From the NCBI RefSeq assembly GCF_016612505.1, contig NZ_JAENRR010000009.1, positions 1-64,000 on the forward strand: 64,000 nt of DNA. The letters are read 5' to 3'. Positions 2,320-5,215 of this stretch are shown piece by piece. Every line of letters starts with the position of its first letter. Positions within the stretch are counted from its first letter, which is position 1. The notes beneath the pieces were generated by a model. That model made no database searches, had not been told where the DNA came from, and was given only the letters and a program-made list of their open reading frames with translations. This DNA is from Carboxylicivirga marina. Its GTDB lineage: Bacteria; Bacteroidota; Bacteroidia; Bacteroidales; Marinilabiliaceae. Both the position numbers and the translations under genes were made by a program.

Positions 2320-3516
2320 CTACTGGTCCAATTTTCTCATTGCATCGATTAAGTAATGCTTATTGGGTTTAGTATAGAGCTCTGTAGTCTTAATTTCAGT
2401 GTGTCCAAGCATTTTACTTACATATTTAAGTGCTACTCCTTTATGTAAAGTGTTGGTTGCAAAAGAATGTCTGGCACAATGAAAACTAATGTTACTTGCT
2501 TTGTTTATTTTACATTTTGTGATTGATTTTCGGAGTATTTTATTGGTATTCTGATTTGTTATAACTCTAAATATCGGCTTTCTAGTGTTGGCTACATATT
2601 TAGGTAGGTATGTTAAAGCTTTTTTTGTTAGAGGTATAACAACATCAATTTTAGTTTTATGCATTTGTTTCTCGACAGTTTTCCAGTCATCAACACCACC
2701 ATCTTCATTTGAAAGAATTGAATTGGATATAATGTGATTGGGGGTTAATAGTTTAACATCCATAAATCGTAATCCGGTATAACAGCTAAATAAGAAATAC
2801 TGAAGTACATTTTTTTCTCCTTTAGGTATATTTGATGAGTTGTAATATTTTTCAAGTAATTCTACTTCATATGAAGTTAAATACTCTCTTTTACCTGGCA
2901 CCTTATGTAATTTAATCTTTTTAAAGACATTGGTATCTAATAAGTCATTCCTAATGGCGTCATTCAAAACAGCTTTTATAAAACCTAATGATTTGGTGAT
3001 TGTATTTGTTTTATTGCCAAGTTTCGTGTGCATATAGTTTTTGTAACCTTGAATAAAGTCAAGATTGTTCACTTCTGATAGCTTTAGGGTTTTGATATTT
3101 TTATAATTATCAAGTTTGGTTAGTTGACTTTTGTAAGTTCGTTTGGTATTTGCAGATATATCATCATGTTTATCAATGTACAAGTTTGCAAATGCAAAGA
3201 AACTATCCTTTGAGAAATTGCCACGAAACTTATTTGTGAATTCAGTGAAGGTTGGCGGCTTGTTAAACCTGATAAAATCATTATTGATTTTCTTGGCCTT
3301 CGTTATTGCATCAACCAGCTTCAAATTATTAATGCTACTATCTTTAACGGTAGAACGAATTCTTTCCTTTTTTTCAAGCCAGTCGTCATTTAAGCAATAA
3401 ATACCCAGTGAAAAGTATTTAGACTGTCTGTTGATGGTAATTCTTAAATAAATCGGATGAGAACCATCTGTTTTGGAGTACGATTTTCTTAAAACTAATT
3501 TTGAACTTGCATTCAT
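2320..3516 (-). CDS. Tyrosine recombinase / integrase next to ssrA
   Basis: A site-specific recombinase of about 398 residues with the layout of Bacteroidota phage-type integrases: an N-terminal beta-rich arm-binding region (SKTDGSHPIYLRITINRQ), a SAM-like core-binding domain near residues 100-200, and a C-terminal catalytic domain. Counting from the ATG at 3516, the catalytic set is visible as R250 (CYTGLRFMDV), a lysine near 287-289 (HKTKIDV), H346 and R349 (FHCARHSF), H372 (MLGHTEIKTT) and the nucleophile Y381 (ELYTKP). The start at 3516 is preferred over 3540 because an AAAAGGAAA ribosome-binding site precedes it. The gene ends up beside the tmRNA 3' end, 144 bp away, facing away from it. 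That is the standard arrangement for an element integrated into ssrA. Confidence 0.92.
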   Translation of the reverse strand: MNASSKLVLRKSYSKTDGSHPIYLRITINRQSKYFSLGIYCLNDDWLEKKERIRSTVKDSSINNLKLVDAITKAKKINNDFIRFNKPPTFTEFTNKFRGNFSKDSFFAFANLYIDKHDDISANTKRTYKSQLTKLDNYKNIKTLKLSEVNNLDFIQGYKNYMHTKLGNKTNTITKSLGFIKAVLNDAIRNDLLDTNVFKKIKLHKVPGKREYLTSYEVELLEKYYNSSNIPKGEKNVLQYFLFSCYTGLRFMDVKLLTPNHIISNSILSNEDGGVDDWKTVEKQMHKTKIDVVIPLTKKALTYLPKYVANTRKPIFRVITNQNTNKILRKSITKCKINKASNISFHCARHSFATNTLHKGVALKYVSKMLGHTEIKTTELYTKPNKHYLIDAMRKLDQ

Positions 3517-3569
3517 ATTATTTCCTTTTTTGTAAAACAATTGTCAAACAAATCTGGAAATAAGTTGAG

Positions 3570-3659: not shown

Positions 3660-4060
3660 TGGTGGAGCTGCGGGGGATCGAACCCCGGTCCAGACAAGGA
3701 AGCTTTGCGCTTTCTACATGCTTAGCTAAGACTTAATTTTCGAATAATAACTGGATCAAAGCCACCGATTATTACCTTATCCTTTTAAGTTTCGGAAAAG
3801 ATCCAAGGCTTACCTTTTCCTAGTTCTGATTTTCCAGCATCTCTAATGCGAACCGCCTCAAAACGTTAGCATTCGCGAGATGTCTCGTTTCAGCACCTAG
3901 TGCCGAAATAAAGCTAATCTACTATGATTCGATTAAGCAGCAAGAGCAAAATTATTTTCGCCAATTAAAATGTTTGAGATCCGGGATTAACGAGCCAGCA
4001 TCACGACGCTCGACATGCTTACACATCACTTTGCCAAGCTGTCAAATCCACGTCAGCCCC
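3660..4060 (-). ncRNA. ssrA: tmRNA (transfer-messenger RNA)
   Basis: The 5' end GGGGCTGACGTGG (4060 downward) pairs with CAGCTCC at the 3' end, which carries an encoded CCA (3660-3662) and a T-arm GGTTCGATCCC. The molecule is about 401 nt. The tag frame runs from 3962 down to 3933 and reads GENNFALAA followed by TAA, with resume codon GGC. This is close to the known Bacteroidetes tags of the GExNYALAA type. The RNA charges with alanine and rescues stalled ribosomes by trans-translation. Its 3' end is the likely attachment site of the element to the left. Confidence 0.97.
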
Positions 4061-4150: not shown

Positions 4151-4179
4151 ATAAAAAAGCCATGCTTTACAGCATGGCT
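4151..4179 (-). terminator. Terminator of the WM-repeat gene
   Basis: AGCCATGC (4158-4165) pairs with GCATGGCT (4172-4179) around a 6-nt loop. On the minus strand the stem is followed by TTTTTTAT. It lies 27 nt past the stop codon of the upstream gene. Confidence 0.75.
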
Positions 4180-4205
4180 CCAATGGAGGATTTTTATTTT
4201 ATTTC

Positions 4206-5024
4206 TTATTTAGCGACTGCTAACCATTCTGATGAATCAAGCATCCAGTTCTCAATTGCTAAAGGAGTTTCAGTAAAATCAGTATCGTTAAAAATTGCTG
4301 ACCAACTGCTTAAGCTAAGCATCCATTCTTCAATGTGTAATTGTTCACTGGCAAATTCGTTAGCAACATATGCGCTACCTTGATTTAAAACCTCCCACTC
4401 TTGAGTGTTTAACATCCAGCTTTCAATGGCTATGGTTTCTTCTTCAAATTCGGTGCTTTGTTCGATAATTGAATAGCTCGCCAAGCTTAGCATCCAATCT
4501 TCAAGATAAAGCTGTTCCTCAACAAATTCATTGCTGGCGTAAGGACTTGTTGGTGATAATACAGCCCATTCTTCGGTATTCAACATCCAACTTTCAATAG
4601 CAAGTGTTTCTTCAGAAAAATCACTATTAGCTGAAGCTATTGTCCAGCTATTGATATCAGTCATCCAGTCCTCAACAGCAATAGCTTGCTCGGTGTATCC
4701 TGTAGGTATTGAATAGGTTTTAGCAGGTGCAGTTGTTGCGGCATATGATTCTGTCATCCATGGTTCAATAACGATAGGAGATTCAGCATCACTTGTCATC
4801 ATTTCTTTAAGATTTACTGAATACGTTTCGGTAATAGGAGCTGTAGAAACATGCTTGGTTAATCGTGAGTTTACCATGTAAGACATGTCTTTGTAAAATG
4901 TTACTTTCTCTTCTTGTTGAAAATATGAGAAATAAATACTCAAAGTAAATATGCTTGCTGCAATACCAAAAAACAGGTAGTTTATTACTGAGTTCTTGTG
5001 GCTATGGTTAACTGTAGTTTTCAT
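4206..5024 (-). CDS. Membrane-anchored protein with seven WM repeats, function unknown
   Basis: I do not recognise this 272-residue protein (277 if started at 5039). The ATG at 5024 is favoured because a GGAGG ribosome-binding site lies 8 nt upstream. It has one transmembrane segment near residues 13-34, so the rest probably faces the periplasm as a signal-anchor protein. In the 277-residue numbering, seven Trp-Met pairs occur at 94, 125, 151, 182, 208, 239 and 265. They are spaced exactly 31, 26, 31, 26, 31, 26, so the true unit is a 57-residue double repeat. Each unit reads roughly F-x-EE-x-(L/I)-x-(I/L)-E-x-WML-x(4-5)-W/Y. The protein is strongly acidic, with no Cys in the repeat region. 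It has its own terminator and appears monocistronic between mdh and ssrA. A binding or scaffolding role is only a guess. Confidence 0.8.
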   Translation of the reverse strand: MKTTVNHSHKNSVINYLFFGIAASIFTLSIYFSYFQQEEKVTFYKDMSYMVNSRLTKHVSTAPITETYSVNLKEMMTSDAESPIVIEPWMTESYAATTAPAKTYSIPTGYTEQAIAVEDWMTDINSWTIASANSDFSEETLAIESWMLNTEEWAVLSPTSPYASNEFVEEQLYLEDWMLSLASYSIIEQSTEFEEETIAIESWMLNTQEWEVLNQGSAYVANEFASEQLHIEEWMLSLSSWSAIFNDTDFTETPLAIENWMLDSSEWLAVAK

Positions 5025-5183
5025 CTCTAATTCCTCCATTGTTTGTTACGTCAATGGTATATCAGATTATGTGCCATGATTTGTAAGTGTCACATATATA
5101 GTGGATAAGATGCTTGTTTGGGGTTTTGGGACTTCTTTTTTTGAACGATATTGCAACAAGCCAATGTTCGAAATCGAACAAAT

Positions 5184-5215
5184 AAAAAATCCTGCCAATA
5201 ATCGACAGGATTTTC
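5184..5215 (-). terminator. mdh terminator
   Basis: AAAATCCTG and CAGGATTTT (outer arms about 5186-5214) form a stem with a G-U pair near the loop. The minus strand continues with a T-rich run. It is about 30 nt past the mdh stop codon. Confidence 0.75.

Follow-up and report, generated by a model that had tools for sequence, protein, structure and literature searches.

The window analysed in this study, a stretch of 64,000 nucleotides from Carboxylicivirga marina, starts with a group II intron fragment (1-74) and a DDE transposase (DUF772 / DDE_Tnp_1_6; 287-1834), followed by a tyrosine integrase at 2320-3540 and ssrA (tmRNA, tag GENNFALAA) at 3660-4060. Adjoining ssrA, and directly downstream of mdh, lies a gene on the reverse strand whose product carries repeated Trp-Met (WM) pairs and which is here called the WM gene. 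Its main features are as follows:

4206..5024, reverse strand: coding sequence of the WM-repeat protein, 272 aa from MKT (277 aa with the ATG at 5039)
5033..5037, reverse strand: Shine-Dalgarno-like GGAGG, invariant in nine orthologues
4920..4982, reverse strand: transmembrane anchor predicted from sequence, residues 20-40 (277-aa numbering)
5185..5215, reverse strand: terminator-like hairpin in the interval between mdh and the WM gene
4156..4181, reverse strand: terminator-like hairpin 3' of the WM gene

The open reading frame from the first ATG spans 4206-5039 (reverse strand) and encodes 277 aa. The start at 5024 (MKTTVNH...) is preferable, because GGAGG is located 8 nt upstream of it and invariance among the orthologues begins at M6-K7; the 'MEDxx' ahead of these residues seems conserved as well, which would reflect the Shine-Dalgarno sequence read as protein. 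The deduced protein has a single hydrophobic segment at about residues 20-40, which is 82% conserved among orthologues, preceded by a short K- and H-containing N-terminus and followed by an ectodomain of 236 residues that contains 33 Glu and 9 Asp versus 6 Lys and 1 Arg, as well as 12 Trp and no Cys. On the basis of the positive-inside rule, the WM repeats would face the periplasm. Since terminator-like hairpins are present on both sides of the WM gene, it is probably a single-gene unit.

The Trp residues of the seven WM pairs are found at positions 94, 125, 151, 182, 208, 239 and 265 (277-aa numbering), in agreement with the original prediction of seven pairs at exact spacings of 31, 26, 31, 26, 31 and 26 residues. 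No more than five WM pairs occurred in any of 20,000 shuffles of the ectodomain, and placing seven pairs at random 200,000 times never produced the alternating spacing. The units surrounding these pairs, all on the reverse strand, are:

4737..4784: WM unit 1, residues 86-101, the least canonical
4644..4691: WM unit 2
4566..4613: WM unit 3
4473..4520: WM unit 4
4395..4442: WM unit 5
4302..4349: WM unit 6
4224..4271: WM unit 7

The best 57-residue double units share 61% identity in both protein and DNA, while the single units of the protein are 34-66% identical in pairwise DNA comparisons, levels that point to old duplications. The 31/26 alternation reflects old duplications of a two-unit block under selection, and not recent slippage. 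An orthologue of the gene is present in all 14 Carboxylicivirga genomes, with five, six or seven WM units at spacings of 24-39 residues, which rules out the 31/26 pattern as a structural law. The alternation is a local feature and the conserved part is the 16-residue motif ExxLxLExWMxxxxxW. Using 216 units from 46 proteins, in which W0 and M+1 are invariant by the manner in which units were selected, the consensus ExxLxLExWM(L/T)(D/S/N)xxxW was derived, with Glu at -8 in 161, Glu at -2 in 189 and Trp at +7 in 142 of the units. In comparison with orthologues, motif positions of the window protein are 63% identical and linkers 40%; E-2, W0 and M+1 are conserved in 100% and W+7 in 84%.

For the close pair C. 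sediminis and C. mesophila, dN and dS were estimated at 0.022 and 0.394, respectively. Slippage alone, which the original prediction had named as a possible deflating explanation, does not apply here since the units are both divergent and under purifying selection. We attach scarcely any credence to the notion of a functionless low-complexity repeat maintained by slippage: counting of the repeats between species of the genus did reveal that their number changes (five, six or seven), as such a repeat would predict, but it would not account for a dN well below dS, for invariant motif positions or for a conserved promoter (see below). Near-perfect 25-residue tandem units, apparently the product of recent expansion, were seen in another WM protein (L062 / L233), unlike the window protein.

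No match to a described family above the curated or usual threshold was obtained in Pfam, NCBIfam, PHROGs, PADLOC or the PDB, while sub-threshold Pfam matches (RAM, HILPDA and others), the best of which had an E-value of 0.22 and fell under the cut-off, were rejected. The library searches and the sequence composition thereby bear out the original description of an acidic, membrane-anchored protein without a described family. The searched viral contigs and plasmids yielded no relatives of the WM protein; a phage, plasmid or defence protein was rejected as a candidate, relatives being absent from viral contigs, plasmids and defence models. Structure prediction, which had been proposed as a check, was informative for the anchor only: AlphaFold2, supplied with 16 orthologues, modelled the membrane helix with confidence (residues 21-40, pLDDT 78-83), while the repeats acquired no confident fold, the remainder of the protein being of low confidence (mean pLDDT 52, pTM 0.17) with short helices around the WM units. 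The model of a distant family member was no better and likewise of low confidence. Low confidence in the repeats is what linear motifs carried by a flexible arm would be expected to give, and the acidic outer part of the protein is predicted to be disordered.

These models also bear on the idea that the units, being aromatic and acidic, embed themselves in membrane interfaces, so as to protect or space the envelope without a protein partner. The short helices around WM are amphipathic in the low-confidence model, and Trp and Met are suited to an interface; however, the strict E-x-W-M order, with E-2 in 189/216 units, goes beyond what an interface needs, and a net acidic arm is a poor fit to anionic lipids, making such a lipid-binding role decidedly unlikely.

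Relatives were sought using a 20-column profile built from single WM units, which matched 42 of 52 near-complete genomes of the same family (E up to 1) and 35 of 290 near-complete genomes of the order (E up to 0.1), although some of the weakest matches may be chance. A profile search was among the checks initially proposed, and this one uncovered related repeat proteins in scattered families of the order. The window protein, with at least two ExxLxLExWMxxxxxW-like units spaced by 16-40 residues and an N-terminal export signal, is shown by these sequence comparisons to be a member of an undescribed Bacteroidales family, in which the motif is displayed one to ten times on acidic, poorly conserved linkers. 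Relatives occur in, among others, Carboxylicivirga sediminis, C. mesophila, C. linearis, Plebeiobacterium and Alkaliflexus, and the genome of C. marina itself harbours a second WM gene (contig 120) with five units at spacings of 19, 19, 20 and 29. Distant members possess 1-10 WM units behind signal peptides or lipoprotein signals, and the type of anchor differs, being a transmembrane helix in the window protein, a lipobox (LLMGC) in L109/L110 and a signal peptide in L005/L026. A strict nucleotide pattern for an ExWM triplet, applied to 392 phylum-wide genomes, gave one other match, and as this match carries an in-frame TGA, the family seems, as far as such a pattern can detect it, to be restricted to the order. 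A nucleotide pattern of three bare WM pairs was also applied across the order and abandoned as too noisy, the majority of its matches being simple repeats and CRISPR-like arrays.

A conserved repeated unit, variable linkers and export signals are also what one would expect of a multi-copy precursor that is cleaved into signalling peptides. Against this, no conserved cleavage site was seen in the linkers and no peptidase, modification or export gene was recurrent among the neighbours (clusters judged by eye), while a family member with a single unit exists (L228) and the transmembrane anchor is retained; we therefore consider a peptide precursor to be very improbable.

Regarding genomic location, mdh is found directly upstream of the WM gene in the window and in most relatives, across WM protein identities from 67% down to 28%, and the linkage also holds in several further genera of this family. 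Within the closer group, the genes are ordered mdh, WM gene, ssrA, while in one relative (L045/L133) ssrA still adjoins the WM gene and mdh does not. The suggestion that the gene is recent or lineage-specific, originally made on account of its site next to ssrA and an island, is contradicted by its presence in 14/14 genomes of the genus, the family-wide linkage to mdh and the occurrence of the protein family in scattered families of the order. Equally, cargo of an ssrA-linked island was ruled out because the WM gene is positioned on the mdh side of ssrA and the integrase beyond it, on the far side; species whose fetched flank has no related integrase retain the WM gene as well. As regards the integrase, an 80% identical protein is encoded at the corresponding position of C. 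sediminis (L043, 7524-8726), which suggests that integration at ssrA has recurred within the genus.

Across the other WM orthogroups the neighbours are unrelated and differing housekeeping genes, and no operon partner recurs beside WM genes from one orthogroup to another. In the two other genera checked (L104 and L109), a DUF2807 (head GIN) lipoprotein gene is situated 3' of the WM gene that is linked to mdh. Several genera in which no WM gene was detected encode, directly 3' of mdh, a lipoprotein comparable in size and start. A passive protein of the cell surface or biofilm matrix would be in keeping with acidic repeats and with this DUF2807 'adhesin head' neighbour in two genera, yet the anchor is an inner-membrane helix, no signal for export to the cell surface was seen in the protein, and neighbours vary between orthogroups; we regard this role as quite improbable.

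Upstream of the WM gene, alignment of nine orthologues revealed TGGCAC-N6-TGATAT near the gene and TGTTCGATTTCGAACA about 100 bp farther up. The corresponding features in the window, all on the reverse strand, are:

5061..5076: sigma54-like -24/-12 element TGGCACATAATCTGAT
5142..5159: second conserved upstream block TTGTTGCAATATCGTTCA, a possible second activator site
5165..5180: upstream palindrome TGTTCGATTTCGAACA, a candidate site for an activator (bEBP), 104 bp upstream of the -24 element

This arrangement is widespread in the family: TGGCAC-N6-TG with the palindrome TGTTCG-N4-CGAACA 101-106 bp upstream was found before 60 of 85 WM genes (up to three mismatches), the distance to the -24 element being exactly 104 bp in 44 of those 60. 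The palindrome (three mismatches or fewer) is located upstream in 60 of the 61 WM genes with a -24/-12-like match, as compared to 291 of 5000 random same-locus segments, and with a leave-one-out matrix 43 of 83 WM genes scored beyond the top 1% of random regions; positions flanking the composite are of low information content. When the fetched loci and the window were scanned on both strands (2.76 Mb), all 53 distinct composites (two mismatches or fewer) preceded a WM gene, a figure that describes the sampled flanks and not whole genomes, as the loci had been selected because they contain WM genes, together with their flanks; an offset control returned 2 matches. Clustering of the DNA that separates the two elements gave 33 groups unlike one another, so that the composite is not simply a matter of recent ancestry. 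One other locus (L191; G029 contig 87) has three WM genes within 12 kb, each with its own composite promoter.

The assignment to sigma54 was assessed position by position. At -24 the GG is invariant in all 57 distinct sites, and at -12 TG occurs at the correct spacing in 57/57, its third base being A or T in 54 and C in 3. The sigma54 promoter consensus has TGC at -12 (PMC12316311), and we use the label 'sigma54-like' because the element reads TGA or TGT. A palindromic activator site at a fixed upstream distance, as found here, is a further property of sigma54 promoters. The C. marina genome contains rpoN (contig 55), as do all near-complete genomes of the family, so that its presence gives no contrast. 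No activator gene of the GAFTGA type was found beside any WM gene in the fetched loci, and none was seen beside rpoN. We know of no activator site that TGTTCG-N4-CGAACA matches, and the literature, as covered with most subscription journals outside, yielded nothing relevant on the motif, the palindrome or the promoter. Overall, it is very likely that the protein family and its composite promoter will hold as described, and likely that the WM gene depends on sigma54.

In the whole genome of C. marina, TGGCACNNNNNYTGAWAT occurs four times, namely upstream of both WM genes, of a thioredoxin gene and once elsewhere (reversed control, 0). At L243 (contig 144, 28678-28695), the thioredoxin gene pair has TGGCAC-N6-TG upstream and lacks the palindrome TGTTCG-N4-CGAACA, and is perhaps sigma54-type under another activator. 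It is nevertheless relevant to the possibility that the WM protein acts as a redox or metal buffer, in which exposed Trp-Met pairs and nearby Glu residues scavenge oxidants or bind copper. A thioredoxin pair among the four genomic matches to this half of the promoter, together with W and M fixed in every unit, would favour such a buffer, but each unit has one Met only, His and Cys are not enriched, the hydrophobic and Glu positions are likewise constrained, and the thioredoxin gene is without the palindrome. On balance, buffering seems improbable.

A second type of promoter was encountered in WM genes without the composite, which come mainly from one other family. The sequence TGTAAC-N17-GTC, which resembles an ECF-sigma promoter in form, is located upstream of nine WM genes (L060, L063, L064, L068, L069, L070, L225, L229 and L237), six of which belong to one other family of the order; spacers of 12-22 other than 17 gave zero matches, with the exception of one at 20. 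In L225 it coexists with a -24/-12-like element and a palindrome that has three mismatches. Neither promoter type was detected in about 15% of the sampled WM genes. That the genes of a single protein family have two unrelated types of inducible promoter suggests that WM proteins may serve an extracytoplasmic response with rewired control.

Based on these findings, we propose, at slightly less than an even chance, that the WM protein is an inducible envelope-response protein which displays a multivalent Trp-Met linear motif to a periplasmic partner. A sigma54 activator (bEBP) answering an extracytoplasmic condition would switch the WM gene on, a task that would fall to an ECF-type sigma factor in sister lineages. 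The protein would then form a flexible arm that reaches from the inner membrane into the periplasm, and its repeated Trp-Met motifs may bind a common periplasmic or envelope partner by avidity, thus making the protein a multivalent tether or scaffold in the envelope response. Because the linkers are variable and the anchors interchangeable, only display of the motif would matter. We infer induction by an envelope signal and, from motif conservation and multivalency only, the binding of a partner.

The partner may instead be the periplasmic sensor domain of the histidine kinase belonging to the activator, in which case the activator-induced WM protein would end the response, in the way that CpxP shuts down the CpxA response. 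An export signal and a dedicated inducible promoter fit a loop with its own regulator, but the numerous paralogues found in the genomes of some species (three in L191) and a range of 1-10 repeats would be unusual for a feedback regulator, and this version is unlikely. In its most far-reaching form, the proposed multivalent display would be part of a dedicated Bacteroidales envelope-signalling circuit, in which one conserved sigma54 activator has a regulon of almost only ExWM proteins, ExxLxLExWMxxxxxW is a new short linear motif recognised by its own dedicated receptor in the periplasm, and control has elsewhere been rewired to ECF factors; a circuit of this kind is possible, if doubtful.

What is new in the current study is the protein family and its motif, while the regulatory parts resemble known kinds; it is this regulation that is more interesting than the 31/26 spacing. 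The motif provides a signature for orphan proteins that no library describes, and the promoter that their genes have in common unites scattered hypothetical proteins as a co-regulated set. Two questions are made directly testable, namely which activator and signal induce these genes and what the Trp-Met motif binds.

Among known systems, ZraP, Spy, CpxP and the phage-shock proteins are stress-induced small envelope proteins encoded by single inducible genes, some of them under sigma54 or an envelope-stress sigma factor. The WM protein would likewise be a small envelope protein encoded by a single inducible gene, although it matches no Pfam or NCBIfam model of these proteins and, where they have a helical chaperone fold, would present a repeated linear motif along a disordered arm. 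Its composite promoter shares with NtrC-type sigma54 promoters TGGCAC with GG and TG at canonical spacing, a palindrome about 100 bp upstream and the presence of rpoN, and differs in that the -12 of WM genes is TGA or TGT, not TGC. SigX-type ECF-sigma promoters of Bacillus have the form TGTAAC-N17-CGAC, to which the TGTAAC-N17-GTC preceding nine WM genes is similar, whereas the window gene is without such a promoter. Lastly, TPR, Sel1 and LRR are solenoid repeat families, and the WM repeat, at 16-39 residues with a hydrophobic pattern, is reminiscent of them; in contrast to these solenoids, the length of the WM linker varies freely within one protein, and the repeat has neither a Pfam repeat match nor a confident fold.
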